Below are positions 2,723 to 61,184 of a DNA stretch of 64,000 nt, in pieces (within the stretch, counting starts at the first letter, position 1; each line of letters opens with the position of its first letter). The stretch spans positions 1-64,000 of IMG/VR virus record IMGVR_UViG_3300046804_005087. The stretch is one strand, 5' to 3'. Under the pieces are notes generated by a model. That model saw nothing but the letters and a program-made list of their open reading frames with translations. It was not told where the DNA came from and ran no database searches. The translations under genes and the position numbers were made by a program. The stretch comes from a virus.

Positions 2723-2867
2723 CTATCCTAAAACTGACTGTTTCACCCTCTATAAATTCCTTAAGAGGGTGAAACACCCTGGAACCTAGACAGGGTAAGG
2801 GTTTCAGAGTTTTAGGGCGTTTGGTATTTTAGGGATGTTGACAGTAAGGTGGTTGATTGTGTAGAAT
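2723..2867. promoter_or_regulatory. divergent regulatory module, copy 1
   Basis: On the + strand TTGACA (2838-2843), an 18-bp spacer and TAGAAT (2862-2867) form a strong promoter for the gene at 2900. The opposite side carries a perfect 11-bp inverted repeat, GTTTCACCCTC (2740-2750) and GAGGGTGAAAC (2765-2775), then on the minus strand TTAGGATAG (2723-2731) 8 bp further out. Length from TAGAAT to the outer end of the repeat is 128 bp, as in the five other copies. Confidence 0.85.
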
Positions 2868-2899: not shown

Positions 2900-3160
2900 A
2901 TGGCTTTATATGCTTTAGTCTCAGGCAATCAAGTTATGTATTCCGACGGAACGAAAGTGACCGTCAAACCTAAAAAACAATCTCCACGCAAAAAAGCTAT
3001 CAAGGTCGGATCAACTGTAATGGTTAATTTTGATTCCGAATGTATTGCTGTTACTACTGCAAAACGTCCAGATGGCTGGTTTGAATTTGAAATTATTCAA
3101 GGAAAAGACAAAAACAAAAAAAGTGCGTGTCACAAAAAGCTTTTAACGTTAATTGACTAA
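2900..3160 (+). CDS. hypothetical protein, basic
   Basis: 86 aa, Lys-rich, with an SH3-like pattern (VGSTVMVNF...WFEFEIIQGK). GAGG lies 10 nt upstream of the ATG. It sits directly under the strong promoter of module copy 1 and is therefore probably early. No family recognised. Confidence 0.6.
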   Translation: MALYALVSGNQVMYSDGTKVTVKPKKQSPRKKAIKVGSTVMVNFDSECIAVTTAKRPDGWFEFEIIQGKDKNKKSACHKKLLTLID

Positions 3161-4686: not shown

Positions 4687-4720
4687 ACTATTAAAATAAT
4701 CTTAATAGTATTATTTTAAA
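4687..4720. promoter_or_regulatory. divergent intergenic region, portal/terminase
   Basis: A very AT-rich gap with an inverted repeat, TACTATTAA / TTAATAGTA (4686-4694 and 4702-4710). The minus strand reads TTAAGATTA just before the portal ATG, a weaker version of the TTAAGATAG late-type motif. No sigma-70 -35 box is visible. Confidence 0.45.
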
Positions 4721-10704: not shown

Positions 10705-11343
10705 CTATTTTAACAACTTAAACTCAAGTACCCAAACCCAGGGGTTAGACGCCCAAGGATGTTTTTTGTTGTCACTGTCCCATAGATTTTGAAAAGCAGT
10801 ACGCAATTCATGTCGGGGGTAGTCTAATCCTGGGCAAAAACTTTCCAGCCCTTCGGCCATCGCATCCTTTTCACTAATATCATTCAACCGTTCAACCCAT
10901 ACATCAGTAATCTCTAAAGTTATGCGAGATGCTGCGCGGGGCATGTGGATTGAAGGTTTCCATTTAACGGGTTTTCCCGTCCGTCCATCAATGCCAGCAA
11001 TATAAACGTTAGCTTCAGGATAGAAAGTTTCGGTTTTATACTTAATATTGCCATCCGATAAGATAGCAAATGTTTCCCGCACCCATAATCGATCATCAAC
11101 TTCTCCAAATGGGCATTTAATTTGTCGGCAATATTTCTTGTGAGGTTCACCTGGCACATGGGTTAGTGTTTCAAAATCCCGTGTTTCTGGATTGATTCGC
11201 TCAATTGTTTTAAAAACAACCGACTCACCTTTTTTGCTAACCATATCCGGCTGTGGCTTAACAACCCGCCGTGACTGTGTTTTACGCCCGTCAAGGATGG
11301 CGCGCACCATCTCGCCGCTAAATAAAATTGGTTTTTCTTTCAT
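10705..11343 (-). CDS. phage ASCH-like protein
   Basis: 212 aa from ATG 11343, chosen because GAGG is 5-8 nt upstream and the longer frame would start inside the promoter -10 box. The N-terminus (MKEKPILFSGEMVRAILDGRKTQSRRV) and the WVRETF, MPRAASRITLEIT and NPWVWVLEFK segments match the widespread phage family annotated as ASCH-domain or morphogenetic proteins. ASCH/PUA-like folds bind RNA or modified nucleotides. It is driven by the host-type promoter of module copy 2, so early expression is likely. Confidence 0.75.
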   Translation of the reverse strand: MKEKPILFSGEMVRAILDGRKTQSRRVVKPQPDMVSKKGESVVFKTIERINPETRDFETLTHVPGEPHKKYCRQIKCPFGEVDDRLWVRETFAILSDGNIKYKTETFYPEANVYIAGIDGRTGKPVKWKPSIHMPRAASRITLEITDVWVERLNDISEKDAMAEGLESFCPGLDYPRHELRTAFQNLWDSDNKKHPWASNPWVWVLEFKLLK

Positions 11344-11374
11344 ACCTACCTCAAATGTTTGCTCGATTTCTTCC

Positions 11375-11519
11375 ATTCTACACAATCAACTGCCTTACTG
11401 TCAAAACGCCATTTTAGCCAGAATCCCTAAAACTCTGAAAGCCTTACCCTGTCTAGATTACAAGGTGTTTCACCCTCTTAAGGATATTATAGGGGGTGAA
11501 ACAGTGGGATTTAGGATGG
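11375..11519. promoter_or_regulatory. divergent regulatory module, copy 2
   Basis: Minus-strand TTGACA (11399-11404), 18 bp, TAGAAT (11375-11380) drive the ASCH-like gene. Inverted repeat arms are GTTTCACCCTC (11467-11477) and GGGGTGAAAC (11493-11502). TTAGGATGG lies at 11511-11519, facing PhoH. The length between outer boundaries is again 128 bp. Confidence 0.85.
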
Positions 11520-11547: not shown

Positions 11548-12312
11548 ATGGGACGCCAACGCCAACGTCGAGTTGATACTGCTAGCTGGGATGACGTTGA
11601 GTCGTCCTATTTTTTTGACAACGTAGTGCCACTAGTCCCCAACCGCAAAACTTTCAAGCCTCTAACCCCTAATCACCATCGGTTAATCCACCATATCCGC
11701 AATAGTCCGATCACGATAATCAATGGGCCCGCCGGTAGTCTCAAAACGTTTCTGAGCTTGCAGACCCTGATACAGCTAATCGACGATGGCACTTATGACA
11801 AAATTGTGTATATCCGTCAGCGTATTCAACGCCCCCATGAGCCAGAATTGGGCTCTTTACCGGGCGATAAGAGTGAGAAGCTACACAAACTACTTGCGCC
11901 GATTTTGGATAACCTGGAGGCGATTCTAAGTCCCTATGCAGTTGACGAATTCATCAAAACTAAAGTTGAATGTTCTGATATTGAATCGTTGCGGGGGCGA
12001 TCACCGTTACGGTCTTGCCTATTCTGTGATGAGGCGCAAAACTGTGATTTAACAGCGCTAGAGACTATCATGACCCGTCGCACTGAATGTTCTAAATTAG
12101 TACTGGCTGGGGATTTTAAAGGGCAACGGGATATTTTAGACCGGGAATTTGATGCTTTTGAGTTGGTTTGTAATGAATTTGAAGGCAAGTTTCCAATCAT
12201 CCATCTAACAAAAAATGACATCCTACGGTCTGAGACTAACAAGGATGTCATCACGGGTTTTGAACGAATTAAAGAACGATTACAACTTATTGGTGTTTGT
12301 CCCCCTGCATAA
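11548..12312 (+). CDS. PhoH-family ATPase
   Basis: 254 aa. Walker A is GPAGSLKTF (about residue 61; the usual form is GPAGTGKT, so Gly before Lys is replaced by Leu). Walker B and its signature are FCDEAQNC (about 160), followed by AGDFKGQRD. PhoH proteins are frequent in cyanophages; their role is uncertain (RNA metabolism or phosphate-stress linked). It is preceded by the inverted-repeat side of module copy 2. Confidence 0.88.
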   Translation: MGRQRQRRVDTASWDDVESSYFFDNVVPLVPNRKTFKPLTPNHHRLIHHIRNSPITIINGPAGSLKTFLSLQTLIQLIDDGTYDKIVYIRQRIQRPHEPELGSLPGDKSEKLHKLLAPILDNLEAILSPYAVDEFIKTKVECSDIESLRGRSPLRSCLFCDEAQNCDLTALETIMTRRTECSKLVLAGDFKGQRDILDREFDAFELVCNEFEGKFPIIHLTKNDILRSETNKDVITGFERIKERLQLIGVCPPA

Positions 12313-21850: not shown

Positions 21851-22002
21851 ATTCTACACAACCAACCGCCTTACTGTCAACACACCCGAAACCTCAAAAA
21901 CCCTAAAACTTTAAAACCCTTGCCCTGCCTAGGTTTCAAGGTGTTTCACCCTCTTAAGGAATCTATAAGGGGTGAAACACTCCGATTCGGTGACTAAGAT
22001 AT
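21851..22002. promoter_or_regulatory. divergent regulatory module, copy 3
   Basis: Minus-strand TTGACA (21875-21880), 18 bp, TAGAAT (21851-21856). Inverted repeat arms GTTTCACCCTC (21943-21953) and GGGGTGAAAC (21969-21978). Module length 128 bp. CTAAGATAT at 21994-22002 faces the + strand gene. Confidence 0.85.
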
Positions 22003-23658: not shown

Positions 23659-24360
23659 CTAATGCTTAATTACCAGCGTTGTAGTTTCCGGTAGATTAGC
23701 GTCTGGGTAGCACAATCGCCATACGTCATGAGAATACAAGTTCTTCCACTCAAAACGAGGGCAGGGAACTCGCTTAATTTCCTTTTTGAGAAACAGACTC
23801 ATTGCTTTTAGCTTGCGCCATTTAAACTTTGTTTCAGAGACATCATTAAACTTGGCGATACGGACAATGGAACTGTAATCGAACAACTCATCAACAGCTT
23901 CTGACAACAGTTCATTTTCTTGCTCTAGCAGTTCCTTTTCAGCCTGTGCCTTCTCAAGTTCTAACTGCAATCGCCCCGCTTCTAACAATGCTTCCCCGTA
24001 GGATTTCGGGATATTGGCGATCGCCGTTGACTGGACTTCAAACCCTGCTAGTTTGTGCAACGAAGCACGAATTCCTAGTTTAGAAAACTTTTTTAGCAGT
24101 GACGGATTGTCTTTTTCTAGCCAATCAGCCATTGTATTTTCGTCGATGAGCCGTACTCCTTGAATCCCTTGCCCTGTCTGGATTTCAGCCGATTTAAAGT
24201 TGTCTTTCCGTACCCCTCCCATCCGTGACGATATGGTGGTTTTTGGGACACCACTCATTCGGGAATAGCCTGCTTGAGTCGCAAAGCTTTCGCCGGTTTG
24301 GGTATTGATGACCAATTCAATCCCATCTTTGTCAAAACGTTCGTAACTTACAATACTCAT
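23659..24360 (-). CDS. antirepressor-like regulator A
   Basis: 233 aa. The first ~120 residues (MSIVSYERFDKDGIELVINT...TGESFATQAGYSRMSG...LHKLAGFEVQSTAI) are near-identical to the protein at 53123-53851. The C-terminal halves differ: here a coiled coil (~130-165), then a KFKWRKLKAM region. The layout, a conserved N-terminal recognition domain and a swapped C-terminus, is typical of phage antirepressors. GGAG precedes the ATG. The leader hairpin is described separately. Confidence 0.65.
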   Translation of the reverse strand: MSIVSYERFDKDGIELVINTQTGESFATQAGYSRMSGVPKTTISSRMGGVRKDNFKSAEIQTGQGIQGVRLIDENTMADWLEKDNPSLLKKFSKLGIRASLHKLAGFEVQSTAIANIPKSYGEALLEAGRLQLELEKAQAEKELLEQENELLSEAVDELFDYSSIVRIAKFNDVSETKFKWRKLKAMSLFLKKEIKRVPCPRFEWKNLYSHDVWRLCYPDANLPETTTLVIKH

Positions 24361-24398: not shown

Positions 24399-24420
24399 CC
24401 TCCAGGTGAGACTGGGGGCA
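24399..24420 (-). promoter_or_regulatory. leader hairpin with invertible-looking loop (copy A)
   Basis: Flanks CCTCCA / TGGGGGCA can pair (one G-T). The 8-bp core is GGTGAGAC here and its exact reverse complement GTCTCACC in copy B (53890-53911). It lies in the 5' leader of the regulator. Confidence 0.7.
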
Positions 24421-26584: not shown

Positions 26585-26607
26585 CCCCCATTTAGGGGGA
26601 TTTTTTT
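26585..26607 (+). terminator. rho-independent terminator
   Basis: CCCCC-ATTTA-GGGGG then A and seven T. The T-run overlaps the stop codon of the convergent tape measure gene. Another G5/C5 hairpin lies at 26528-26543. Confidence 0.85.
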
Positions 26608-29600
26608 ATCTCATTTTACGCCGATAAACCCGTGCCCCCTCATCCTGAATCTGAGACTGGGAACGTCGGAAACTATCAGCATTAGGCGTGACCACGGTAT
26701 AAGACTGGGTAAAGTTATTGACTACCTGATTGCGTTGATTAGAAATAGCTTGACGGGTCTGGGGACTAGGCAGCATTGTCTCCATGCCCCAATTACCGCG
26801 ATAGTTGCGACTATCGTTATAGAGTCGGTCAGTGCCATTAGCAAAACTAGGAATGTTGTCCCATACCCCCGTCCGTTTCAAAGCCCGAAACTTTTGAGCG
26901 TCGCCATTGAGCGTGGACAGGATAGCTTCCCCCTGATTGACTACGGCTAACATTGGCTGTTGCCCCGTTTGGGCTTTTTCCTTGGCCATCACCGCGTCTA
27001 TGCCGTTAGCAAAATTCAAAATATCAACGTTGTCAATCCCTTCAGCAAAATTCAAGATGTCAACTTCATCAGTCCCCATAGCAAATGCCGGTAACTGTAC
27101 GGTATCGCCGGTATAACCTGAAGTGGGGATGAAAGCGCTAGCTGCGTTAGCCGCTCCAAACCCACCTGTAAACAGACCGGTTAACCCATCGGCAATCGTC
27201 CCAAATAATCCACCACCACCCGCTTGCATCGCAAACTGATAAAGCGATTGAGTTGCAATCTGGAGAGCGTTCACAAATTGTAATAACGCCGATTGCTCCA
27301 TACTGATACTGGTATTGGTGAAGCCTGTTAACGCTCCGGTAGCAGCCGTTAACCCCACTCCCATTTGTTCGGTCATCGTGGGGATAATGTCAGTGGCGTT
27401 ATTCAGTGATTCAGTAAAGGGAACAATGGGATTTTGTTGATCCGTAGTCAGGGTAGCAGTCCCTAACTGAGTAGCAGTTTTAAACACCGAACCGGCATCA
27501 AAGCCCCCGCCATTCTCCGGGGTAGGCATATTGGGGGAACTGTAACCAAACATGTCGGCTGTCCACTGGCTTAGGGTGTTCGTGACGGGTTTGAGTACCA
27601 GTTGGTCAAATATCTGACTTGCCATTACATCAAGCAATTTAGTAAATGCCTGGGTAAAGTTGTTAGTCTGGAAAATCGCCTCTTTAAGATTGGCTCCCAA
27701 TTCTTGAATAAAGGGGATAGCTTCTCGGAAAGACTTCTGATAATTAATCTCTGCTAATTCCTTCGATTGGGCGATAAAATCAGCTTGCGCTTGCCCCGTT
27801 AACCCCAAAGTTTTAGCCTCAGCTAACGCCCGTTGTTGAACAGTATCCAGTGCCATTTTGGCTTGAATAATCGCCCCGTCATTGACCAACGTACCGCCCA
27901 AATCGTAACGTGCTCCACTGATAGAAGCCATCAAACTAGCCGCTTTATCTAGGTAGTTTAGTTGCTTCTCAAGATAAGCATTATTAAACGCATTAGCCGC
28001 GGCAATGTCACGGGTCGCTAATAGCTGTTGTTTTTGGGTTTCCAGGATGCCAGATTGTGCATCGTATTGGTCAATCAATGCCCCAATCTTGTCATATTCT
28101 GACTGTAACAAATCAGTGTTTAATCTAAGCTTTTTACCTTCCAAAATAGCCCATTGCTTAGTAGCTTTGAGGGTTTCCTTTTCTGCCACAAACAAAGCTA
28201 TCTCACGCTGTTTATCTTCAATAGACCGTATTTGTTGAGTATAGTTCTGGAAGGTATCAATGCCAGATTGCCGCGCAGATTCCATGATGGTTAAAAACCC
28301 TTTGGCATTACGGGTCATCTGCAAAATAGATAGGGATTGGTCATTGATTGTACGGTCAGTCTCAATAACCGTGCGTTGCAGTTGGATACTAAATCCCGTT
28401 ACATCATCAATTAGTTGGGCAAACTTCTCAATACTGTCTTGCTGAATCCCAGCCATCCGCATTTGAATTAATTGCTGATTTAATGCCGTTAGCCGGTTAG
28501 CCTGTTGGATTAACGGATCGGTATTAACTTGTACCGGCTTAGGCAATGCCTGACCAGCATCAAAGCCTTGTAACTGTACCTGACTAGGATTTAATTCCCG
28601 GTTAACAGTATTCATAAATGACTGTTGTTTGACCGTGGATAGATTAAATGGCTGAGCCGTTAACGGTTGGTAATCAATTGCCTGGGGTTTGGCAGTAACA
28701 GCCGGGACGGGTTTGGTTGGTTTAGCTGTTTGGGGATTGCTAGGCTTAGCCGTGGTTTGATTGACTGGCTTATTAGATTGAACGGTTACAGTGTCGGCTT
28801 GGACAGTAAAACCATTAGCCTTAGCGGCATTATTAAACTGCTTTTGAATCCGTTCATCACCATAGGAATTGTTAGCTAATTTAACCGCAACATCAGCTAA
28901 GTTTGTGCCCTTTGGCAAAAAGTCTTTATTGTTACGGGTGAAGGTACGTGCAAACTCTAAAAGAGTTTCTGGCTTATTGCCCATCAATCCCTCTAGTGTG
29001 TTACCAATACTGTCAATTAATCCCCCTAATTGTGCAGTCTGTCCAAGTTCAATCCCTTCAGGAATACCAAAGTTGAGCTTAGATTGCAGTCCTAGTGATC
29101 GCCGCCGCTGAATGGTTTCATTGATGGCATCCCCAGCACGGTTAGGGGAGATAGAAGCACGATTGCCACCTGTGCCGGCATAACGTGATTGTCCGGTAGT
29201 CCGACCCGCTTCTGGGTATGCTAAGCCGATGCTAGCCCATTCCCGTGCTGATGATTGGATCGCCTCAGTTAACGACCCATTACGACCACTAGATAAAATG
29301 TAATTGCCAAGTTGAGGACGTTTATTTTTGATTAAGTCAATTGCCAATAAATGCTGGGTTTCGGGCGTAAATGGTGCATTTTCTAATCCTGTACGTTTTG
29401 CCGCACTTTTTAACGTGGAAGGAATAAACTGATAGGCTCCTACCGCATATAATTGACCGGCATTTTGTTTGGCGATAATTTGATTAACAGTTATTTGCTC
29501 AATTGGTTTTTTAAACAATGACTGTAAGTTTTGACCGCTACTATCACCAGCTCGACCGCGATTAAAGGAACCATAGCCACCTTCCCCACTACGAATCAAA

Positions 29601-32600
29601 CGTAACAAAGGCTCGAACGATTGAATTTCAAGAGACTGGTTAGATTGCGGTTGCCATTGGTTTTGTTGTGGCTTAGGTTGCTGTACTCGCTGTGATTGGT
29701 ACGGATTGCTAGCCTTATTAACCAATCCACCATAGGCATTAGTGTACTGGTCGAGAATATAGCCGCCATTTTGATTAGCGTTCATTGCCCCGTTAAAAAT
29801 ACGGGGATCGCCAGGGGCGTAATCAGACGGGTTGAATTGCTGCAATTGTTGTGTAACCTGTTCCCAACTTCTTACCGGCTTAGCCGTATCATATTCAGGT
29901 TCATAAACGACTTGCCCATTGTCACCAACATAAACTTCCCCTTTAGAACTCTGGGTCGGCAATGCCATTTCATCAGTCCACAAACTAGGATTGTTATTAT
30001 TAATTGTCGTCTGATTTGTTGCCTGATTATAAATAATTGATGACTTTGCACCGTAATTATTAGCTTGGGGAATCGCCGTGTTAGGACTGTAATTAAACTT
30101 ACTACCAAGGGCGTTAGTTAATGTCTTAGACTCAGGGCTAGATTTATCATTGCGAGTAATCGTCCGGTATAAATCTTCAAACGCCCGCCGTAGATTATTA
30201 GTCGAATCGGTTAAGCCCCGTTGCAAGTCAACATAAGAACGATTTAACTGCCTTACTTGGCTGTCATATTCCCGTACATTTTCAATGTATTGTTCTTCGA
30301 TTTGGCGTACCTGACGTAATCGACTAATCCGTTCTTTTTCCAGATTTAAGACATCGATCTTGATTTGTCGTTCATTGGTTTGATTACTAAATAACGATTC
30401 AGTAAATCGCAACACCATCGCATTTAATTGACGGGCGGCGCTGTTAGAATTGCCAGGGGTAATGCTTAGGTTTTGGGTACGGAGCTTGGATAATTCTATG
30501 TTGCCTTTGGCATCTTCTAAAGACTTTTGGACTGTTTCAATTTGAATGTTAAAATCAGCGCCTAGGTCTTGATAGGACTCGATTAGGTTGCGATTAGATA
30601 AGCGTAATTGACGACTTGTTTCTGCTACCTGAAGCCCAAAATCTTCAATAGAGCGTTGATCTTGGATAGCTTGCTGTTCAATTTGCCGGTTAAGATCATA
30701 GACCTGGCGGGCGGTAGTCCTGAAATAGTCCTCTATTGTAAAGTCCATTTTAAGGTCATATTCAGCCTTAGCAATACTACTTGCCAGTCCAGACAATTCA
30801 ACAGATTGTTCTCTTACTGTTTTTCTTAATTCTTCAATTTTGGCGCGTTTTTCTGATACATCACCAACGTTAGAAATTGATAAGGCTTTGCGTAATGCAA
30901 GGTCGTTTTCTCGCAGTGCATTAGCTGTTATTTCGTAATCACGTCGGTAGCTTTCTAACGCCACTAACTGACTTTTACGATTAACTACCATTGACCCACC
31001 GCCCTCTTTATAAATTTGGGTGTTTGTCATATTAGTTTGGATTGTATTTTGCGATTTTAGCCGGTCTAACTGGGACTGTACATCTAAAATTTTATTTAAT
31101 ACCCGATCCCACGCATCTTCTAACGGCTTAGCAATATCACTAATGCCTTGACCCGCAAAATAGTTTTTAATGTCATCAGCCAACTGTTTAACAGGTTCTA
31201 ACGCTGCATTAGCTCTTTCTTGAGCAGCCAATGGTAAACCAGAGTTTTTAATTGCCGCCGTTGCCGATTCTACATATTGACTTAAATCCTTAGAGTAGGA
31301 ATCAAGGTCAATAAATGGCTTAGCTAGTTCTTTTCGCGTCTTTAACAGATTGTTTAAATCTTTGTCAATAGACTGTATTTGTAATCGAGCTTGAGCAGTA
31401 TTCTCTAGTCCTAGATTAGTCCGTTGGTCTGACAACTGATTACGTTTAGCGTCAATATCTTTTATTTGTTGAACAGCATTTAAGCCAGTATTGCTTAATG
31501 GTTTTGACAAATCATTAACATCAAAAAGGGTGTTATCTTTTTGCAGTCTTTCTTTAATGTTTTTGTAATCCTGCTCATAACCAATCAACGTATCTAGCAA
31601 TTGATTTTCTGCCATCGTAGGCGGCAATCCAACTTGCTGGGGAAAATAATCTTGAATACCTAATCGTTTAGAAGCTTCAATTCTGTCTTTCGTATTTTCC
31701 ATTATAGCCGGACGATTTAACTCTGCCCAAAAATTCATTAACGGGTTTTTAGTGTCTTTGGCTATTTTTTTTAGACGTTCGTATCCTGTGATTAATTGTT
31801 TAAATTTTTCTCTTTGTTGCAGAATAAAGTCATCAGACTTAAATGATTTCTCAGTGCGTCCAAAAAAGATAGTTTCAAAACTTAACTCTAACCCCTTAGA
31901 TGGCAACTTGATTGAGTTAATTTTTGAGTTAGTATCTTTAGCTTGCTCACCCAATGATTTTAAAGCCGACTTCATTGCATCGGTAGAACCAATTAAAGCG
32001 TTACGTGCCTTGTTAGATTCAGCTTCGATATTGTTAGAAAAGTCACTACGGGCAAATGCCATTACTCCTATTGCCAAAGCAGCCTCAGCGGCAATCATCG
32101 CTGTTCCCATTGCCAATCGTTGCGCCGCCATCTGTTTAGTGCGACGATTCAATAGCTCATCACGTTTAGCTTGATAACGAACTAACGCATCTTTTTCAGG
32201 ATTCAAATTACCATCTCCCATCATGGATTCACGACGGGCTTGGTATTCCTGTTTGAGCTGTCTTAATTCCTGTTGATTGTCAGCAATAGCCTTTTCTCTT
32301 GATATAGTCGAGCCGGTAGCCCGTGAATAATCAGACTGATAATTCCGAATGATTGATTCCCGTTTTTGCTTATATTGCATTAACGTATCAAGCGATGAGT
32401 CTAACTCTTTTCGTAATACGCTAAATTCACTACCAAATCGACTCATTACGTCTGTTTTTGTGACCCCTGACAATGAAATCAGCGTGCCACCAAAAAGGTC
32501 GTCTATTGTCCGTTTCATTGTACTTGCATTAATTACGGCATCTTTAACGGCTTTGCCCCATCGTCCTAATGCCATTGTCAAATTATTTAAAGTTGGCATT

Positions 32601-35600
32601 ACAAACATATTTCCTAATACTCGCACCTGTTCAAACATCAAAACAAGTGCAGTCATTTCAATGACACCACTGGGAATTGTTTTAATGAAAGATTTTAGCC
32701 CATCCGTAATAGCAGAAAATGGATTGCCTCGCTCAATAAAGGGATCAAACATTGCCCCCATACCACCATCGCGCATCCCTCGGTCAATGCCAGTAAATAA
32801 TGCCGTAAACATATTGCCGACACCTTTACTCATGTTTTCCATGACACTATTTTTAGCACCTAGGACATCATCCATAACATCGGCAATTGTTCCAATTAAA
32901 AAAGGAGTTAACGTGCCTAGCGTATTTTTGAAAACAGAGAATAATAGGTTACTTCCCCCCTTAGCGATATTGGCGATCGCTGGGGTTTTCATGATGTAAC
33001 TAACACCAATCCCAATAGACGCCCAAACGGCAATTAAACCCGAAACAGCTAATGTATTAAGAATTTTAAAATTGCTATTTACTAAACCTAAAACATTAGC
33101 CCAAGTTGATTTAACAGTAGTAAATAATCCACCGTAAGTATCAGCAAAATTCTTATTTAACTTAAAGTTGAGATTCTGAATTCTTGTAGTAGCACTAGCA
33201 TAGTTGTCCCCCATAGACAGCGCCGCTGTTCCAAAGTCCTCTTTTAAGACTTTACTAACAGCCCCGACCCATTTTTCCGTGCCAATAGCACCACGGCTTA
33301 CCATTTCATCTAATCCCGCCGTTGTAGTATTTAACGCCTTGGCAAATACAGACATCGCCGGAGGGAATCGCTCACCCAATTGTTGACGTAGTTCTTCCAT
33401 GCTGATTTTGCCTTTGCTTAGCATTTGAGTATATGCCATGAAGATTAAATCAGCATCTTGAGTGCTTAATCCTAACGCTCGAATGGAGGCAGAAATACCT
33501 TCAAATAGGTCTAACATTTCCTGTCCGGTCAGATTAGTATTTCGAGCGGCGATCGCCATTTGGCTAAAGTTTTGTACCGCTGGCTCAATAGGAATCGAAT
33601 ACTTTTCAGCAATGCCTGTTACCTGGCTTTGTTTTGCCCCTCCTAACGTTGTGTTTCCTTCGAGAGTAGTAAAGCGTTGTTTAATTGGTTCTTGCTGCAT
33701 TAAAGCCTGATCTATGCGTTGCACAATCGGCGCAATTAACGTACCAATACCCAGACTAGCCATTGCCGCAGGGATCAAGGGCATAGCCAAAGGCGCGGCG
33801 GCGATCGCAGGGGCAAGACCAGGAGCAAACGTAGTAGCACCGGCTACGGCAAACGTCATAATCTGGTCAATCAACCCATTGGCTGCTTCACCTTTAAGTT
33901 TTAATCCCTTAATCAAAGATGACTTAAGCGTCCCAAAGAAGTTATCGAAATACTCCTCAGTTCCTTCTACGGCTAAATTACCAGCATGATTACCCAATGC
34001 GGTAAATTGGCGATTAAACCGAGTGTTAAGGTTTTTAATTTCATTGTCTATCGCTTTAATTTGGACGGTATCAACTCCATTCGCTTTTTTTGACAATTTT
34101 AACCGTATATCTTTTAAATAGTTAATAGTTAAGATAACTTCTTTTTTGATAGATTCTAATTCTTCTTTTGAATCAGAACTATCAATTTTTTGTAAAAGCT
34201 CTTGTCTTGCCTTTTTGTTTGTGCGTGAGCGTTTATGACCGGCAACTTCATAAAAAGGTACGTTGACAGGCTTGGAATTAATATTGTAATCTAGCCGTCT
34301 TTTCCGTTTTTCCCCGGTCGCATTAGTTGGAGCTTCTAACGGACTCGATAATAATTGAGTTTGTTCATTATCATTGTTAACAACTGAATGAAGTTTTGGG
34401 ATTGGGAATTTCTCATAATCAAATCCCATTCTGCCAGCCTCGTTTTTAGACTGAGTAAATAGCTTGACACTATTCGCCGTTATCGACTCAATTTGTTTAT
34501 TGACAAAGCTTGCTGTTTTTTTCCAGTTTTCTCGAATCCAATGGGTCGGGCCAGGTGAACCCTCAGACAAATTCTTTTGCAACGGATAGGCTTGTTTTTT
34601 CGCCGTTTCCGTCATTTCTACCATGTCAATCTGTACAGCATTAGCTGTTTTATCCCAATTCTGCTCAATAGCCTGATTAGGCTGAGATTGAATTTGTTTA
34701 ACATCAATAGAGTTCACTAACTGCATTTTTTTAGTAAGTTTAGTAAACACTCTATCTGTTGCCTCTTCCAATTCATATATAGATACAGTTAAAGCTTCAA
34801 CACTATTTTTTGTATCAACAAATATAGTCTGCTTTGAAACACCAGTAACTTTATAGTTTCCTGACACTAACGACTTTTTTTCTTTTTTGTAATCATAATC
34901 AGGGTCATCAGCTAACCCAATAGCATTGTAAGGAATGTCAAAACCTTTTCGTGGATTTTTAATGCGATAAATGCTGTCGCCTTTTTGTAGATTGACCGAC
35001 CCTTGATTTAATCCAACACCAGACAATACAGACACTAAGTCACCAGTAAATGACTTGGGATTGGCAAAGTTAACCTTATCACCTAGTGAATGATTTGCAT
35101 CGCCGGGATGCATTCTGATTAAATTGCTGTAATTAGTTTTACTGACAAGTGAAAGTAACTTCAAGTTTTCATTGTTTGCGATTTTATTGTTAGAACTTGA
35201 CACTACTCTTCTACGAATAGCCTTTAATGTATCTGGGTTTAAAGATTCGCTACCGTTGGCAGTAAAAAGTTTAGTGGCATTATTTGATAACGCACTTAGT
35301 TTTTGCATTATCTTTTTTTCTGCCTGTGTCAATGACTCACTAGCCCCAATCTCTAAACCTTGACCGATGGCTTCTCCAACCTTAATAAACTTTTTAGATG
35401 GCGAATGACTATCAATGGCTTTTTTGGCAACATCAATAGACTGAGTCATTGTCGATTCTACAGACTCAAAAACGATATTTTTATTGGCATTAACACCACT
35501 TCCTACACCATCAGGAATTGACTTACCAACACTACCGGCATCCCGTTTTAATTTAGAAACATCAGGCATTTCTACAGCATTAGCATCAAGCGTTATGCCC

Positions 35601-37891
35601 TTAAATGCCGACTCATCCATCTTGTATTTTTTAACATCAAAACCAAACCCTTTCCCCTGCTCTTCTAATCGTTTAATTAAGTCACCAAACGCCTTAGCAA
35701 TAGAACCAATATCACCTTTCATTCTTTCCATTGGCTCAATGCTTCCCCGCATTTTACCTAGGAACTCAAACTTTAATTTCTGAGCTGCTTTATATTGTGC
35801 TTCCCAGTCACTTTTGACAGTAGACTGCATGACAGGATCTAGCTGTTTAAACTCAGCCGGTTTAAGCTGTTTTAGCCCCGGTAATTGTACAGACTGAGGG
35901 ATAAAATCCCCCTGATTAGCCCGTTCAACATTAGCCGCTTTAGGTAGATATTCTCCGATTAATTTACGTTGACTCTCAGGCAACGTAGGCAAATAAGTAT
36001 CAAGGTTTTGCGCTTTTTCAATTAATCTACTTACTTTACTAGATGCAACCTTGCCAGCATTTTCAATCTGCCCTAAAAACCTAGGTTGATTGGGAGATGG
36101 CTCTAACACTTGCTCGACTTTTTGAGATGCTTTTTGAACGCTTTTTTCTGCTATTACACGCATCCCTTGACCGCCTAAAAGACTAGCGCCACCTGCGCCA
36201 ATCATTGCACCCCCAGACGTCAAAAACTGATGAACATTTGTGACTACGGCTTGAATCTCACCAATAATATCAGCCGCTAAAGGAGCCCCAAATCTTGCAG
36301 GTAATACTGATGTAATTTTTGTGACAACCCCTACTACATTTTGCAAAAACTCAACTTCTAATGGATTAATTCCCTTTGCCACGGCATCACTCACCATATG
36401 CATAACAACCTGGGCGATTTGATGCCCACCAGGTAACTGAGACAACCCAGCAATCGCCGCTGTAGGAATGGCGACTTTTGCTGTAGTTTGAATAGCAGAC
36501 TTAGCCTTGTCAGGGATTCCCATCGGGTCTAAAGCGAATACTCCAGACTCAACAGATTTTAACCCCTTATAAGACAAATTTCCCGCCCCAATCGCACCTC
36601 TTACTGCTGTCTTGGCAGATTCAACTAAAACGTTTAAGACATTATCTTTTGAGTCTTGAATTGCAATCTTCCCTTTTTCCGTCACCAATTTCATTGACGT
36701 TTTAGGATGCAATAAATAATCGCGCATCGTTGGATTTTCTGACGTTTTAGCGATTAAACGACTATCTACTTTTGCGCTTTTTTGATATTGAATTAACTGG
36801 TCACGATAGCCTTGCATAACAGGATCGTCACCAACATCACCCATAACTTTTAATTGTTCAGAAATATCATTCTTGATTTTCCGAACTTGTCCATAGTCAT
36901 TACTGTTAACTGCCAAATCTAACCGATTCGACAATTCACTAATCAACTTTTCTGATTCACGATACTGCTTTAACTTGCTTGAGATTTGACTGGAAACGAC
37001 ATTTAACGTTGCAGAAAGTTTAGCAATAGCGTCAACCTGTAAATTGACTTGATTTCCCATTGCAATCACTTCGGCGTTAGACGGGATACCCCTTGCGCTA
37101 ATTGTTTGATTAGCATTTCTTAAATTCTGCTTAATATCCTTAGATTGTCTTTTTAAATCATTAATAACAGATTTTTCTTGACTCAACCCTTTAGACTGAG
37201 ATGCAACACTAGAAACATCAGACAATAAAGAATCAATGCTATCCATTTTATCCTGGTATTTCTTGACCCTTCCAAGCTCATCCTTTTTAGCTTTTACGTT
37301 TGGGAAAGCATAAGAAACTGTAGCGTTAGCCGCTTTTTTGCCAGCATCTTTTAAATCAAAGTTAAAATCCTCGCCAATAACAGAAGCAAACCCATTAAAT
37401 AATTCTTTGGATATAGACTGTCCAAATCCTTCAAAAAAACCACGACCGATACCAGCAAACGGAGCGGTAATAACATCACCCAGTTTGTCAACTACTTTTT
37501 CAACCTCACTAGTTAACTTATCTTCAATTTCGCCATACAACGTATCGCCATAATTACCTTGACCGGATTTAGAGCCAGAACGATCTCGATTTTTCTTTTT
37601 TGCTTCTAATTCATTTAATTTTTTATTTGCATCTTCAATTTCCGAATCATCAACCTTAACCGCAATTGGGTTATTTTCAAACAAGTCAACAGTTTCAAAT
37701 AAATGATTTTGCTTAACATCTAAAAGCTCATTTAGCTCGTGTAAATTATCTAACTCAACCTTAGGTTTTATAGGACTCCCCTTTTCAACCATCGCTAGTT
37801 TTTTAATCGCCTTTCTGACCGCCGCGTCAATGTCACGACTTAACTTACTGTCATCAGCAACTAATTCTAAAACCAGCGTTTCCAGATTCAT
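26606..37891 (-). CDS. giant tape measure protein with lysozyme-like domain
   Basis: 3,761 aa in one uninterrupted frame. A tape_measure domain lies near residues 1,400-1,600 (MLSKGKISMEELRQQLGERFPPAM...). Hydrophobic segments occur near 440-560 and 1,330-1,370 and around 1,620-1,720. Long coiled-coil stretches follow. A lysozyme/transglycosylase-like domain near 2,760-2,900 has a candidate catalytic Glu in IRSGEGGYGSF and GAYQFIPSTL. Pro/Gln-rich linkers flank it. It sets tail length and probably cleaves wall glycan at entry. At about 0.15 nm per residue the tail could reach about 560 nm. Confidence 0.93.
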   Translation of the reverse strand: MNLETLVLELVADDSKLSRDIDAAVRKAIKKLAMVEKGSPIKPKVELDNLHELNELLDVKQNHLFETVDLFENNPIAVKVDDSEIEDANKKLNELEAKKKNRDRSGSKSGQGNYGDTLYGEIEDKLTSEVEKVVDKLGDVITAPFAGIGRGFFEGFGQSISKELFNGFASVIGEDFNFDLKDAGKKAANATVSYAFPNVKAKKDELGRVKKYQDKMDSIDSLLSDVSSVASQSKGLSQEKSVINDLKRQSKDIKQNLRNANQTISARGIPSNAEVIAMGNQVNLQVDAIAKLSATLNVVSSQISSKLKQYRESEKLISELSNRLDLAVNSNDYGQVRKIKNDISEQLKVMGDVGDDPVMQGYRDQLIQYQKSAKVDSRLIAKTSENPTMRDYLLHPKTSMKLVTEKGKIAIQDSKDNVLNVLVESAKTAVRGAIGAGNLSYKGLKSVESGVFALDPMGIPDKAKSAIQTTAKVAIPTAAIAGLSQLPGGHQIAQVVMHMVSDAVAKGINPLEVEFLQNVVGVVTKITSVLPARFGAPLAADIIGEIQAVVTNVHQFLTSGGAMIGAGGASLLGGQGMRVIAEKSVQKASQKVEQVLEPSPNQPRFLGQIENAGKVASSKVSRLIEKAQNLDTYLPTLPESQRKLIGEYLPKAANVERANQGDFIPQSVQLPGLKQLKPAEFKQLDPVMQSTVKSDWEAQYKAAQKLKFEFLGKMRGSIEPMERMKGDIGSIAKAFGDLIKRLEEQGKGFGFDVKKYKMDESAFKGITLDANAVEMPDVSKLKRDAGSVGKSIPDGVGSGVNANKNIVFESVESTMTQSIDVAKKAIDSHSPSKKFIKVGEAIGQGLEIGASESLTQAEKKIMQKLSALSNNATKLFTANGSESLNPDTLKAIRRRVVSSSNNKIANNENLKLLSLVSKTNYSNLIRMHPGDANHSLGDKVNFANPKSFTGDLVSVLSGVGLNQGSVNLQKGDSIYRIKNPRKGFDIPYNAIGLADDPDYDYKKEKKSLVSGNYKVTGVSKQTIFVDTKNSVEALTVSIYELEEATDRVFTKLTKKMQLVNSIDVKQIQSQPNQAIEQNWDKTANAVQIDMVEMTETAKKQAYPLQKNLSEGSPGPTHWIRENWKKTASFVNKQIESITANSVKLFTQSKNEAGRMGFDYEKFPIPKLHSVVNNDNEQTQLLSSPLEAPTNATGEKRKRRLDYNINSKPVNVPFYEVAGHKRSRTNKKARQELLQKIDSSDSKEELESIKKEVILTINYLKDIRLKLSKKANGVDTVQIKAIDNEIKNLNTRFNRQFTALGNHAGNLAVEGTEEYFDNFFGTLKSSLIKGLKLKGEAANGLIDQIMTFAVAGATTFAPGLAPAIAAAPLAMPLIPAAMASLGIGTLIAPIVQRIDQALMQQEPIKQRFTTLEGNTTLGGAKQSQVTGIAEKYSIPIEPAVQNFSQMAIAARNTNLTGQEMLDLFEGISASIRALGLSTQDADLIFMAYTQMLSKGKISMEELRQQLGERFPPAMSVFAKALNTTTAGLDEMVSRGAIGTEKWVGAVSKVLKEDFGTAALSMGDNYASATTRIQNLNFKLNKNFADTYGGLFTTVKSTWANVLGLVNSNFKILNTLAVSGLIAVWASIGIGVSYIMKTPAIANIAKGGSNLLFSVFKNTLGTLTPFLIGTIADVMDDVLGAKNSVMENMSKGVGNMFTALFTGIDRGMRDGGMGAMFDPFIERGNPFSAITDGLKSFIKTIPSGVIEMTALVLMFEQVRVLGNMFVMPTLNNLTMALGRWGKAVKDAVINASTMKRTIDDLFGGTLISLSGVTKTDVMSRFGSEFSVLRKELDSSLDTLMQYKQKRESIIRNYQSDYSRATGSTISREKAIADNQQELRQLKQEYQARRESMMGDGNLNPEKDALVRYQAKRDELLNRRTKQMAAQRLAMGTAMIAAEAALAIGVMAFARSDFSNNIEAESNKARNALIGSTDAMKSALKSLGEQAKDTNSKINSIKLPSKGLELSFETIFFGRTEKSFKSDDFILQQREKFKQLITGYERLKKIAKDTKNPLMNFWAELNRPAIMENTKDRIEASKRLGIQDYFPQQVGLPPTMAENQLLDTLIGYEQDYKNIKERLQKDNTLFDVNDLSKPLSNTGLNAVQQIKDIDAKRNQLSDQRTNLGLENTAQARLQIQSIDKDLNNLLKTRKELAKPFIDLDSYSKDLSQYVESATAAIKNSGLPLAAQERANAALEPVKQLADDIKNYFAGQGISDIAKPLEDAWDRVLNKILDVQSQLDRLKSQNTIQTNMTNTQIYKEGGGSMVVNRKSQLVALESYRRDYEITANALRENDLALRKALSISNVGDVSEKRAKIEELRKTVREQSVELSGLASSIAKAEYDLKMDFTIEDYFRTTARQVYDLNRQIEQQAIQDQRSIEDFGLQVAETSRQLRLSNRNLIESYQDLGADFNIQIETVQKSLEDAKGNIELSKLRTQNLSITPGNSNSAARQLNAMVLRFTESLFSNQTNERQIKIDVLNLEKERISRLRQVRQIEEQYIENVREYDSQVRQLNRSYVDLQRGLTDSTNNLRRAFEDLYRTITRNDKSSPESKTLTNALGSKFNYSPNTAIPQANNYGAKSSIIYNQATNQTTINNNNPSLWTDEMALPTQSSKGEVYVGDNGQVVYEPEYDTAKPVRSWEQVTQQLQQFNPSDYAPGDPRIFNGAMNANQNGGYILDQYTNAYGGLVNKASNPYQSQRVQQPKPQQNQWQPQSNQSLEIQSFEPLLRLIRSGEGGYGSFNRGRAGDSSGQNLQSLFKKPIEQITVNQIIAKQNAGQLYAVGAYQFIPSTLKSAAKRTGLENAPFTPETQHLLAIDLIKNKRPQLGNYILSSGRNGSLTEAIQSSAREWASIGLAYPEAGRTTGQSRYAGTGGNRASISPNRAGDAINETIQRRRSLGLQSKLNFGIPEGIELGQTAQLGGLIDSIGNTLEGLMGNKPETLLEFARTFTRNNKDFLPKGTNLADVAVKLANNSYGDERIQKQFNNAAKANGFTVQADTVTVQSNKPVNQTTAKPSNPQTAKPTKPVPAVTAKPQAIDYQPLTAQPFNLSTVKQQSFMNTVNRELNPSQVQLQGFDAGQALPKPVQVNTDPLIQQANRLTALNQQLIQMRMAGIQQDSIEKFAQLIDDVTGFSIQLQRTVIETDRTINDQSLSILQMTRNAKGFLTIMESARQSGIDTFQNYTQQIRSIEDKQREIALFVAEKETLKATKQWAILEGKKLRLNTDLLQSEYDKIGALIDQYDAQSGILETQKQQLLATRDIAAANAFNNAYLEKQLNYLDKAASLMASISGARYDLGGTLVNDGAIIQAKMALDTVQQRALAEAKTLGLTGQAQADFIAQSKELAEINYQKSFREAIPFIQELGANLKEAIFQTNNFTQAFTKLLDVMASQIFDQLVLKPVTNTLSQWTADMFGYSSPNMPTPENGGGFDAGSVFKTATQLGTATLTTDQQNPIVPFTESLNNATDIIPTMTEQMGVGLTAATGALTGFTNTSISMEQSALLQFVNALQIATQSLYQFAMQAGGGGLFGTIADGLTGLFTGGFGAANAASAFIPTSGYTGDTVQLPAFAMGTDEVDILNFAEGIDNVDILNFANGIDAVMAKEKAQTGQQPMLAVVNQGEAILSTLNGDAQKFRALKRTGVWDNIPSFANGTDRLYNDSRNYRGNWGMETMLPSPQTRQAISNQRNQVVNNFTQSYTVVTPNADSFRRSQSQIQDEGARVYRRKMR

Positions 37892-37940: not shown

Positions 37941-38222
37941 CTAACTCACGTGCATCGTCCCGTCCTTAAAAATTAATTGCAACATCGTATTTTTTTCGGT
38001 CTCAGTCACGACCACCAATGGCACGTTACGCTCTTGGCAATCTAACACCTGATCGACTAGCGCACCAAAGTCTTGCAACTTTACTACAACTATTTCATTT
38101 TCAGATTCTCCAATGTAATCATTGTTTGATTTTTCTATTCTATTCAACCTATAGCTACCGCCAAAAATGAATCCTAGAATAAAAATAGTGGCTCCAATAA
38201 ACAATCCTAATAAAAAACCCAT
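37941..38222 (-). CDS. small membrane protein
   Basis: 93 aa. The N-terminus is a Gly-rich transmembrane segment (LLGLFIGATIFILGFIFGG) followed by a soluble ~65-residue part with KLQDFGALVDQV. It resembles phage holin/spanin-type or tail-associated membrane proteins only in plan; no family recognised. Confidence 0.55.
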   Translation of the reverse strand: MGFLLGLFIGATIFILGFIFGGSYRLNRIEKSNNDYIGESENEIVVVKLQDFGALVDQVLDCQERNVPLVVVTETEKNTMLQLIFKDGTMHVS

Positions 38223-38271
38223 TTTAAATTGTGTATTTGTATTTTGAATTTATCAACTTAGGAATATTCTA

Positions 38272-38640
38272 ATGATTGGCATTCCTAACGCAATTATTAA
38301 AATCCCAGTCTTCCCCACTTCCCCGGTTAATTTTGACCCCTACACCGGTGAGCCGATATTTGCCGCCCCTACAATCAACACTATCAGGGCCTGTCTGGAA
38401 GAAAAAACACCGCCTAGGGAACAATCACTACCGGGACAGGATACGGCGATCGCCTATTTAGCCGGGAGAATCCAAGGTAAAGCACCACAGTTTCTAACAG
38501 TCCGAAACTTTTATAACATCACCATCACGTTACAGAATCAAACAGTTGACGGGCGATTCTATTTGACCACAACGCCTAAAAGCCGACTAGGACTCGATTC
38601 TGTGTTTGGGGTAGCCATTTACGGTTGGCTGGTTTTGTAA
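38272..38640 (+). CDS. putative head-tail connector/structural protein
   Basis: 122 aa, beta-rich: NFDPYTGEPIFAAPTINTIRACLEEK and YLAGRIQGKAPQFLTVRNFYNITITLQNQTVDGRFYL. Size and position between tape measure and the regulator genes fit a connector or minor tail protein; AGGA is 8 nt from the ATG. The assignment is inference. Confidence 0.45.
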   Translation: MIGIPNAIIKIPVFPTSPVNFDPYTGEPIFAAPTINTIRACLEEKTPPREQSLPGQDTAIAYLAGRIQGKAPQFLTVRNFYNITITLQNQTVDGRFYLTTTPKSRLGLDSVFGVAIYGWLVL

Positions 38641-38659
38641 ACCTTCAAGCAAACTACTG

Positions 38660-38689
38660 ACAAAATACCGTTTGTGTGCTTATGATGGG
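38660..38689 (+). promoter_or_regulatory. sigma-70-type promoter for the HTH gene at 38717
   Basis: CTGACA, 18-bp spacer containing GTTTGTGTG, TATGAT. The spacer recalls the module promoter spacers. Confidence 0.55.
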
Positions 38690-38716
38690 AGAAGCAAACT
38701 TTAGGAGGGTTTAAAA

Positions 38717-39448
38717 TTGAGCGTTTTACAATGGTCGGCAACTGAAATCCGCATTCACGAACTCGCTAAGCGGGTTTGTGAACTGTACAATAACGCTGAA
38801 CTCAAAAAACTTACCAAGGTGAGTCCCCAGACCATCCGTCGGTGGGCCCAGGGTTGGGAGGATAAGGGGAATAGACCTACTGAATCAACCGCGATGTGTT
38901 TACCGGCGATTCTGGCAGTCAGTGAGAATAATTATCAACGGTATTTAAATGGGGACATAACCCTAGATGAATTTTGGGATCTCAAGGGCAGTGCCAAAAT
39001 AACAGCCGGCACTGAAATTACGGTAGAGTCAGTCCTAAACGACGCCAAACGACTATCTACAAGTGACTTGCTCAAGTTAATGTCCAATCTGTTTTTAATC
39101 ATCGTTCCCAAGGAATTAAACGAATTACAAGCCGAACCCCAAACTGAGTCCCCTAGATGGGTGGAGTTGAATGAAACGGCAAAAAAGCGTCTAAGCACCC
39201 TACTGAATCTGTCCAATCTTTACCTTGAGCAGACCTATCAATCCATCATTGAAGCGGGGGCAGACAAAGGGTTGGTAGAAGACATGACCAATGGAGGATT
39301 TAAAAACAATTACACCGAACCTATTTACTATACTCTACTCCCTTTCCTATGCCACTGCTCAAAATGGCACGGGGTTGTACCCTCCGATGCTAACCCCGCT
39401 CAGTACTTTGATTCTGTCGAACAATTGGAAGCTTCACTTAATAGCTAA
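38717..39448 (+). CDS. HTH-containing regulator
   Basis: 243 aa starting at TTG 38717, preceded by a perfect AGGAGG at 8 nt spacing. An HTH-like region at ~28-48 is LTKVSPQTIRRWAQGWEDKG. The remainder is helical with Cys/His near the C-terminus (LPFLCHCSKWHG). It is a probable transcription regulator. It is convergent and overlaps the sigma-like gene by 4 nt. Confidence 0.65.
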   Translation: MSVLQWSATEIRIHELAKRVCELYNNAELKKLTKVSPQTIRRWAQGWEDKGNRPTESTAMCLPAILAVSENNYQRYLNGDITLDEFWDLKGSAKITAGTEITVESVLNDAKRLSTSDLLKLMSNLFLIIVPKELNELQAEPQTESPRWVELNETAKKRLSTLLNLSNLYLEQTYQSIIEAGADKGLVEDMTNGGFKNNYTEPIYYTLLPFLCHCSKWHGVVPSDANPAQYFDSVEQLEASLNS

Positions 39449-40143
39449 ATACTAGCTAACACTTTTTCCTTGCCTTGACGACAGATTTCATCTAACTTTT
39501 CCCAGTTCACGCCTAACGTTAGCATCGCCATTAACGGTTCTTCAGTGAGTGCCGTATATTCCCGGTCGTCTAACACATCGGCGCAACGGACGCTTAGTAG
39601 TTTTGGCTCATCGTTGTCCAACACGTCGAATACGTCTACTACGTCACCGTCGTTGGCTTTTAACTGGGTTACAAACCGATATTTGTAATCTCGTTCATTT
39701 GATGGCGGTTTAATTTGGCGATCGCCCTGAGCTTCCTCCTGAATTAGTGCTTTTATCCACCGATACGCATAGCTAGAAAATTTAATCTCCTTGCCGTCCA
39801 CTACTGGCTCATACAGGTACAGAGCATAGATTAAGCCGATATGCCCCGCTTGAATTAAATCATCGGGGTTTAATTTGTTATTGCGGCGGTGTTTGCGGTG
39901 CGCCTCACTAATCACCATGGCGGTGTTATGGGCAATGAGTTGATGCATGGCCTTTTCTGCCCTGAGTATCTCTGGGGTGTTTTTAATTCTTGCCCGCGCC
40001 GCCCGTAGTTTCAATTTTTTCCATCCCCCGCCAAAAGATTTTTTAACTTCCAGAGATAGTGCATCCTTCAACGGCTTAAAATCCTGCCACAATTGCCGCT
40101 GCTCAATTTTAGTTAACGAGCGTAGTTTGATGCGAGAAGCCAT
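39445..40143 (-). CDS. phage sigma-70-like factor (region 2)
   Basis: 232 aa from ATG 40143 (an upstream in-frame Met at 40173 is possible). Sigma region 2 is clear at ~75-145: LNPDDLIQAGHIGLIYALYLYEP, then IKFSSYAYRWIKALIQEEAQ (compare DLIQEGNIGLIRA and KFSTYAYWWIRQAI of host sigma). Canonical region 4 is not recognisable in the C-terminal ~90 residues, so -35 recognition may differ or be absent. It is the best candidate to read the TTAAGATAG promoters. It is expressed from module copy 4. Confidence 0.85.
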   Translation of the reverse strand: MASRIKLRSLTKIEQRQLWQDFKPLKDALSLEVKKSFGGGWKKLKLRAARARIKNTPEILRAEKAMHQLIAHNTAMVISEAHRKHRRNNKLNPDDLIQAGHIGLIYALYLYEPVVDGKEIKFSSYAYRWIKALIQEEAQGDRQIKPPSNERDYKYRFVTQLKANDGDVVDVFDVLDNDEPKLLSVRCADVLDDREYTALTEEPLMAMLTLGVNWEKLDEICRQGKEKVLASI

Positions 40144-40278
40144 AATCCCTGTAACTCGTAATGTCTGAATCATAACACAGTTTGATAGTGTACACCGCTA
40201 TTATGCCAAACCCACTCAATTATTTCAATTATTTCCAATCATTTTATTTATCACCAATTGCCGACAATCCTAATCCAC

Positions 40279-40415
40279 AATCTACACAATCAACCACCTT
40301 ACTGTCAATATCCCAAAATACCTGAAACCCCTAAAATCTTGAAACCCTTACCAGTCAAGGATTGTAAGGTGTTTCACCCTCTTAAGGAATTTATAGGGGG
40401 TGAAACAGTGGGGTT
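40279..40415. promoter_or_regulatory. divergent regulatory module, copy 4
   Basis: Minus-strand TTGACA (40303-40308), 18 bp, TAGATT (40279-40284) drives the sigma-like gene. Inverted repeat arms GTTTCACCCTC (40371-40381) and GGGGTGAAAC (40397-40406). 128 bp again. No rightward gene follows and no good TTARGATAG motif is found on that side. Confidence 0.85.
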
Positions 40416-53122: not shown

Positions 53123-53851
53123 TTAGCGCGTGAAATAGCGATGGATAGCAGTATCTAGATGTTCGGTAATTTCATAGTGATTGACAGAATACCGCCCTAC
53201 TTGCTCACTGAATGCCGGTTCAATTTGAGATTTTACAAACTTTCCTAACTGTTTACCGTCGCCAATTTGCGTGTCAGAATAACCCAACGCTTTAGCCCGT
53301 ACTTTGACGATAGTATATTGCTTGGGCTTTTCTGCTACTGGCAAGTATTTTAGATTTTGCTCCAAGCTAATCTGATCGACTAACGCATCCTTGAGTAAAT
53401 GCTTCAAGATGCCCTCACTGAGCGATTCAAGCTTGCTTGCCGCTTCGATGTAGTCAACAGCGTCACGGGTTGGCAAAATCCGTTCTACTGGCTGTTGTGC
53501 TTCGATGATTGCACTAGACGTAATCTCAAACCCTGCTAGCTTATGCATAAACACTCGGACTCCCAGCTTTAATAGTTGAGTTGCCATAGTGGGATTATCC
53601 TTAGGTAGCCATTCAGCAATCAAGTCTTCATCAATCAAGTTGACAGTCCGCAACCCTTGCGGTGTCTGGACTTCAGCCGTTTTAGTCTCGCCTTGGTTGA
53701 CAGTTTGACTGTACCGTTTTGATATTGCCTGCTTAGTGAGTCCGCTCATCCGAGCATAGCCTGCTTGGGTTGCAAAACTTTCACCTGTCTGGGTATTGAT
53801 AACTAATTCAATCCCATCTTTGTCAAAACGTTCGTAACTTACAATATTCAC
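53123..53851 (-). CDS. antirepressor-like regulator B
   Basis: 242 aa. The N-terminal ~120 residues are nearly the same as regulator A (23659); the C-terminal part (~140-240) differs and contains YTIVKVRAKALGYSDTQIGDGKQLGKFVKSQIEP and HYEITEHLDTAI. The promoter (TATAAT at 53920-53925, minus strand) is of sigma-70 type. It may bind the same target as A but with a different effector. Confidence 0.65.
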   Translation of the reverse strand: MNIVSYERFDKDGIELVINTQTGESFATQAGYARMSGLTKQAISKRYSQTVNQGETKTAEVQTPQGLRTVNLIDEDLIAEWLPKDNPTMATQLLKLGVRVFMHKLAGFEITSSAIIEAQQPVERILPTRDAVDYIEAASKLESLSEGILKHLLKDALVDQISLEQNLKYLPVAEKPKQYTIVKVRAKALGYSDTQIGDGKQLGKFVKSQIEPAFSEQVGRYSVNHYEITEHLDTAIHRYFTR

Positions 53852-53889: not shown

Positions 53890-53911
53890 CCTCCAGTCTC
53901 ACCTGGGGGCA
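53890..53911 (-). promoter_or_regulatory. leader hairpin with inverted loop (copy B)
   Basis: CCTCCA / TGGGGGCA flank GTCTCACC, the exact reverse complement of the core in copy A (24405-24412). The outer sequences (TTAGGGGTTAACTAAAG, GGTTTTCTCCT) also match. Confidence 0.7.
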
Positions 53912-60932: not shown

Positions 60933-61021
60933 AAATGCCTCCACTAGGCTGATTAGGTATAAAGCTATATTAGCAAGCACACAACTAAAAGACAAGCATT
61001 TGATTGATGTGATTTCCGACT

Positions 61022-61157: not shown

Positions 61158-61167
61158 GCTAAGCAAA
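61158..61167 (+). repeat. GCTAAGCAAA word
   Basis: Exact copy just after the module copy 6 promoter. Confidence 0.5.
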
Positions 61168-61184
61168 TGTATGGAGTGTCTACC

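Follow-up and report, generated by a model that had tools for sequence, protein, structure and literature searches.

What holds an intergenic module to exactly the same length at six separate places in a phage genome while much of its sequence drifts? The question is raised by the window studied here, bases 1–64000 of a 66,812-bp virus record. The initial annotation described six promoter-bearing modules of 128 bp, and all six were recovered where it had placed them, with copies 1 (nt 2740–2867) and 6 (nt 61022–61149) on the plus strand and copies 2–5 (nt 11375–11502, 21851–21978, 40279–40406 and 54002–54129) on the minus strand. Read in their own orientation, the copies align without gaps, and in 6/6 a 36-bp inverted repeat (IR1) is separated by 62 bp from TTGACA, giving 128 bp in total. 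The IR1 pattern (18-bp spacer, at most three mismatches) matched five times in the window against 0.05 expected from shuffled sequence, and the promoter pattern six times against 0.03, both counts being far above chance. The ends of the module are sharp, with flanks mostly 17–47% identical (copies 2 and 3 reach 55% beyond the −10 box). Promoter-type copies lacking IR1 occur outside the window, at nt 66325–66406 of the contig and at nt 31574–31616 of a sister record (G004, below), and one further promoter lacking IR1 keeps the middle box described below at 42 bp.

Copy 1 consists of the IR1 dyad GTTTCACCCTCT-12-AGAGGGTGAAAC (nt 2740–2775), a middle box CCTAGACAGGGTAAGG (nt 2785–2800, the IR2 position) and a predicted promoter, TTGACA-18-TAGAAT (nt 2838–2867), directed towards the ORF at nt 2900–3160. 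The same predicted promoter is found in copies 2 and 3. In copy 2 it lies at nt 11375–11404, towards the phrog_874 gene (nt 10705–11385), with the middle box TCTAGACAGGGTAAGG at nt 11442–11457 and IR1 at nt 11467–11502, the outer side of which faces phoH (nt 11548–12312, plus strand). In copy 3 it lies at nt 21851–21880, towards the 21469/endolysin/RNR operon, with the box CCTAGGCAGGGCAAGG at nt 21918–21933 and IR1 at nt 21943–21978 facing the plus-strand ORFs 22015 and 22443. Copy 4 comprises IR1 (nt 40371–40406), the IR2 dyad CCTTGACTGGTAAGG (nt 40346–40360) and the predicted promoter TTGACA-18-TAGATT (nt 40279–40308), and the first identified gene downstream (nt 39445–40173, minus strand) specifies a phage sigma-70 region-2 protein. 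In copy 5, IR1 (nt 54094–54129) faces the dCTP deaminase gene (nt 54173–54745, plus strand); the middle box, read from the sequence as CCTTATCCTGTCTAGG (nt 54068–54083), is inverted relative to copy 1, and TTGACA with the conserved spacer (nt 54002–54031) points to a regulator-like ORF at nt 53123–53851. Copy 6 carries a second class of IR1, GTCAACCC/GGGTTAAC (nt 61022–61057), in agreement with the variant noted earlier for this copy; its outer side faces an SSB-like gene (nt 60165–60995, minus strand), the box is CCTAATCAGGGTAAGG (nt 61067–61082) and the predicted promoter, TTGACA-18-TAATAT (nt 61120–61149), is directed towards the ORF at nt 61167–61637. The modules had been described as divergent, each with a complete promoter. 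Five copies do lie between divergent genes, but copy 4 is placed between the co-directional clamp and sigma factor genes; likewise, the 18-bp spacer is present in 6/6 copies, but copy 5 has TTTTTA in the −10 position and thus no clear promoter. Three divergent gene pairs in the window with gaps of only 34–49 bp (nt 1495–1537, 4687–4720 and 38223–38271) are without a module, and these may use another, more compact type of promoter.

The sister record, IMGVR_UViG_3300043446_004515 (G004), is 99.99–100% identical to the window record over their common DNA and includes about 10.5 kb that the window record lacks. A seventh module was found in this segment, and the layout, predicted blind, was the same (62-bp gap, 128 bp total), with the IR1 arms altered to GTTAACCC/GGGTTAAC. 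This copy adjoins the head operon (head protease and major head protein). The part missing from the window record also encodes an integrase (nt 29403–30506 of G004, corresponding to nt 9403–10506 of L051), and Ant-type (antirepressor) proteins are encoded by the phage. A phrog_129/BstA-like protein is encoded downstream of the seventh module (nt 38035–38931 of G004, nt 18035–18931 of L051) and is likewise missing from the window record. TerL searches provided three relatives, G001 (72.7 kb), G002 (5.8 kb) and G003 (18 kb). Further carriers of the module were sought using TerL, clamp, helicase, endolysin and primase-like proteins as well as two DNA patterns, and only G004, G001, G002 and G003 were detected; no near neighbour was found among cellular genomes or named phages. 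A DNA-pattern match on contig L200 resembled chance coding sequence, and IR1-pattern matches in T5-like records had unrelated surroundings, and these were discarded. When G001 was compared with itself, eight modules emerged that have a different IR1 (...TATATGCAAC), a promoter being present in four; G002 carries two modules and G003 three, one of the latter with a promoter. Modules without a recognisable promoter are copy 5, four in G001 and two in G003.

The middle box, which the initial annotation did not include, is a third element of the module at a fixed distance. In 7/7 copies, with small variations, the start of the box (TAAGGGTTT) follows IR1 by 20 bp and precedes the −35 box by 42 bp; copy 5 reads TCTAGGTTT at this place. 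In the relatives, the box makes up the right-hand side of the dyad CCTTRnnnnnTAAGG. Among the modules of the window only copy 4 matches the strict dyad, and window-wide this pattern is not enriched (3 matches against 8.3 expected), so that the dyad is defined by comparison with the relatives. The 16-bp element of copy 5 (nt 54068–54083) is the reverse complement of that in copy 1, with 15/16 matches. Another short inversion between paralogous copies was observed in the hairpin loop of the leaders that precede genes 23659 and 53123 (near nt 24399–24419 and 53890–53910), where one leader reads AGTCTCACCT and the other AGGTGAGACT.

The claim that length is fixed despite drift is borne out by the 62-bp linker, which has accumulated about 81 parsimony changes over the seven copies with its length unchanged. 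Two observations had been named in advance as counting against strict phasing, namely indels in the alignment and variable spacing in related phages. Both were found, but in a form that favours it. Copy 4 contains indels, as allowing gaps in its linker alignment with copy 1 gained 40 compared to 13.3 ± 5.6 under substitution only (0/500), yet their net effect on length is zero; most other linker pairs tested were compatible with substitutions only. Spacing in the relatives does vary, but in steps of about 11 bp. The distance from IR1 to the box is 20 bp in the window phage, 22 in G001, 31 and 20 in G002 and 32–33 in G003, and that from the box to the −35 box is 42, 30–31, 42 and 31, and 42 bp, respectively. 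Each segment therefore has a short and a long form that differ by about 11 bp (20–22 or 31–33 bp, and 30–31 or 42 bp), and the two modules present on G002, a small contig, show a difference of exactly 11 bp for both segments (31/42 and 20/31). Expressed at 10.5 bp per turn, the centre of IR1 is about 8.0–8.2, 9.05 or 10.1–10.2 turns from the centre of the promoter spacer (Rayleigh p of about 0.01 on five groups; 0.02 when two shifts are drawn at random as a simple null). Spacing changes mainly by whole turns, in few independent lineages and with a residual scatter of 1–2 bp, and turn-stepping is a good inference rather than proof because the events are few and partly related.

These data support a regulatory module whose length is under selection. 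The phased, looped or cooperative regulator proposed earlier is a good reading of them, since the linker length is kept, the indels of copy 4 cancel and the relatives are turn-stepped. A parallel is the gal operator loop of Escherichia coli, where regulation is best at whole turns (103, 113, 123 and 133 bp; PMC4693257), although gal is a single host locus while the modules are repeated genome-wide.

IR1 itself behaves as a specificity site. In copies 1–5 it is 89–100% identical compared to 55–76% for the adjoining linker, which argues that IR1 is selected and that the copies are more than recent duplicates. The same site is repeated within one genome and its consensus differs in the relatives, the rest of the module being kept. 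Among 15 distinct IR1s, 10/12 arm pairs have changed on both sides, giving a covariation score of 0.360 against 0.179 ± 0.029 for shuffled arms and at most 0.171 for slid registers. Covariation of this kind is compatible with a DNA dyad and an RNA hairpin alike, and the latter, as a leader element or terminator, has some features in its favour. The RNA of copy 1 has a predicted folding energy of −18 kcal/mol (z −5.8), and in some modules of G002 and G003 the outer gene starts 8–20 nt from IR1, which is then directly before the start codon, so that IR1 may be transcribed there and could have a role as RNA. Its position nevertheless argues for a DNA site: IR1 is upstream of the promoter and hence outside the promoter's transcript, copy 1 has no T run after IR1 and no terminator call, no Rfam match was found, and copy 6 shows no significant RNA fold (z −0.6) even though both half-sites are recognisable. 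The arm sequence is, moreover, near constant within one phage. An RNA hairpin in place of a DNA operator is accordingly considered improbable. CRISPR repeats are similar to IR1 in length and ends (36 bp, GTTTC...GAAAC), which would suit a solitary repeat acting as an RNA anti-CRISPR, and the module could also be viewed as a transposable element. Both ideas seem very remote indeed given that the dyad arms measure 9–12 bp and occupy the ends, the promoter is directed away from IR1, neither a target-site duplication nor a second terminal repeat was seen at the six copies, and IR1 is different in every relative. Two candidate features near IR1-like sequence were rejected. GGGTTAAC occurs ahead of genes 23659 and 53123 and was considered an autoregulatory IR1 half-site there, but in both places it belongs to a leader common to these paralogues and has no IR1-like partner. 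A fixed outward promoter beside IR1 (TAGGAT 9–10 bp outside in copies 1, 2 and 5 and in one G001 module) is not claimed because G002 and G003 have no room for one.

The operons that begin with a module serve replication, lysis, nucleotide metabolism, head and regulator functions, and three related phages keep the module layout at orthologous genes despite differing gene order. The phoH module is shared by the window phage (copy 2) and G001, the dcd module (copy 5) and the 22443 module (copy 3) recur in G002 and G003, and the clamp/sigma module (copy 4) in G001. Gene pairs flanking the modules vary, however. The SSB and 61167 sides, served by the single copy 6 in the window phage, have two separate modules in G001, and the phoH module of G001 has a different partner gene, linking copies 2 and 6 to swapped gene cassettes. 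The repeats might accordingly be maintained mainly by homologous recombination that shuffles operons, as has been proposed for PeSL cassettes, with a common length reflecting only descent and gene conversion. We regard this as a rather unlikely account of the modules, as the linkers are too diverged for recent conversion, unlike IR1 and the promoter, the indels of copy 4 cancel, and IR1 is phage-specific with covarying arms. Recombination at the modules and regulation by them are in any case not exclusive.

The turn-stepped distances together with a changing outer site suggest a master regulator bound on one face of the DNA, and we consider it reasonably probable that the module is a phased operator array, in which an IR1 regulator and a middle-box factor control sigma-70-type promoters, likely as a lysis/lysogeny switch of an integrase-encoding phage. 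Three DNA sites would then lie on one helical face, namely IR1, the middle box or dyad and the sigma-70-type promoter with its 18-bp spacer. IR1 would be the phage-specific specificity site, most likely bound by a dimeric phage regulator, while the middle box is the same across relatives; the regulator would contact promoter-bound RNA polymerase, a second factor occupying the middle box, or both. As dispersed control cassettes starting most of the main operons, the modules would switch these coordinately, most likely as the master control of lysis and lysogeny. Whereas layout, spacing, arm covariation and position can be read directly from the DNA, we infer that proteins bind and make contact across the helix face, and likewise the sign of regulation and the role in lysogeny. 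Taking the −35 box to begin at −36, the centre of IR1 is at about −105, −115 or −127 and that of the middle box at about −70 or −81; sites of class I activators are also upstream of the polymerase site (−61.5; PMC4693257). With both sites upstream of the promoter, simple occlusion is less likely than activation or repression by looping, and the latter two would look the same at the sequence level.

A stricter version would make IR1 the operator of a prophage repressor, its sequence changes marking heteroimmune groups as do the stoperators of L5 and Bxb1. It accounts for an IR1 that varies between phages on a constant scaffold, for the integrase and antirepressor genes and for modules at replication, head, lysis and regulator operons, and heteroimmune phages that differ in the consensus of their sites have been described (PMC6550527). 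We consider it quite possible but short of probable, as an IR1 about 100 bp upstream of the promoter is unusual for a simple repressor and the Cro/CI-like HTH protein 24502 is 92% identical in G001 despite the different IR1. The phage encodes several candidate regulators besides the sigma-70 region-2 protein, and those put forward earlier for IR1 include HTH 24502 and RHH 10387. Neither of these two suits a regulator that diverges together with IR1, because of this identity for the former and because the latter has no detectable match in the module-bearing G001; 24502 could instead serve the conserved middle box. The regulator-like proteins 23659–24360 and 53123–53851 have N-terminal domains that are 67% identical and different C-termini, and the G001 counterpart of 23659 retains the C-terminus with an unrelated N-terminus, Rha-like by eye. 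A structure model of 53123 (two-sequence fold) was poor (mean pLDDT 53) and returned no structural match at E ≤ 0.001. Returning to the phased array, a more tentative extension is that in this phage family a fixed, helically phased scaffold of middle box and promoter carries an exchangeable dyad, joint change of IR1 and its protein at many sites with unaltered spacing creating new immunity or regulatory groups; copies 1–5 and copies 6–7 would then be two regulons sharing the scaffold.

That a phage may carry many copies of one regulator site or promoter cassette is already known. To our knowledge, the C1 operators of phage P1 have no fixed phased three-part layout, and in the PeSL cassettes of T4-type phages the stem-loop is the terminator of the upstream gene. 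The 22 dispersed C1 operators control lytic genes of a temperate phage (PMC8546580) and are 17-bp asymmetric sites, in contrast to the 36-bp dyads of the window. Stoperators of Cluster A mycobacteriophages (L5, Bxb1) are also dispersed in many copies with an immunity-group-specific sequence (PMC6550527), but they are 13-bp, asymmetric and mostly block elongation away from promoters, whereas the 36-bp dyads are at a fixed promoter distance. The ESAS of Cluster K mycobacteriophages are inverted repeats at many genes, conserved at orthologues and with a subcluster-specific consensus (PMC3203893); these have 17-bp arms, a variable spacer of 4–13 bp and a tie to start codons (SAS) rather than to a −35/−10 promoter, while IR1 lies beyond the promoter and has a constant 36-bp span. 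Like the module, PeSL cassettes and similar motifs of HGTV-1 are repeated intergenic units combining a promoter (sigma-70-type in the module) with an inverted repeat, and are associated with operon shuffling (Arbiol 2010, cited in PMC3950731); they differ in that IR1 is not terminator-like, as seen at copy 1, and is set at a phased distance. The intergenic repeats of halovirus HF2 are conserved in position among relatives and have demonstrated promoter activity (PMC8707807), but comprise archaeal TATA-box promoters with 58- and 29-bp repeats, and are not known to include a co-diverging operator. By analogy, the module may work like P1 C1 sites, stoperators, ESAS, PeSL and HF2 repeats, a likeness rather than an assignment to any of them; as far as compared, the three-part phased layout, the turn-stepped variation in relatives and the exchangeable dyad appear to be new.

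If this reading is true, the modules represent a spacing experiment made by evolution, with length changes of about one turn in two separate segments of one module, and would offer a clean system for studying the joint change in specificity of a regulator and its dispersed operators, which phage immunity research still asks about. They would also help annotation by marking the control regions in a phage group that has otherwise not been described. The window record and G001 are heavily rearranged relative to each other in gene order, and several of the breaks fall at modules. The tape measure gene (nt 26606–37891, minus strand) specifies 3761 aa (Pfam TMP_3, E 3e-24), which would mean a very long tail, and its G001 counterpart is similarly large at 3736 aa.
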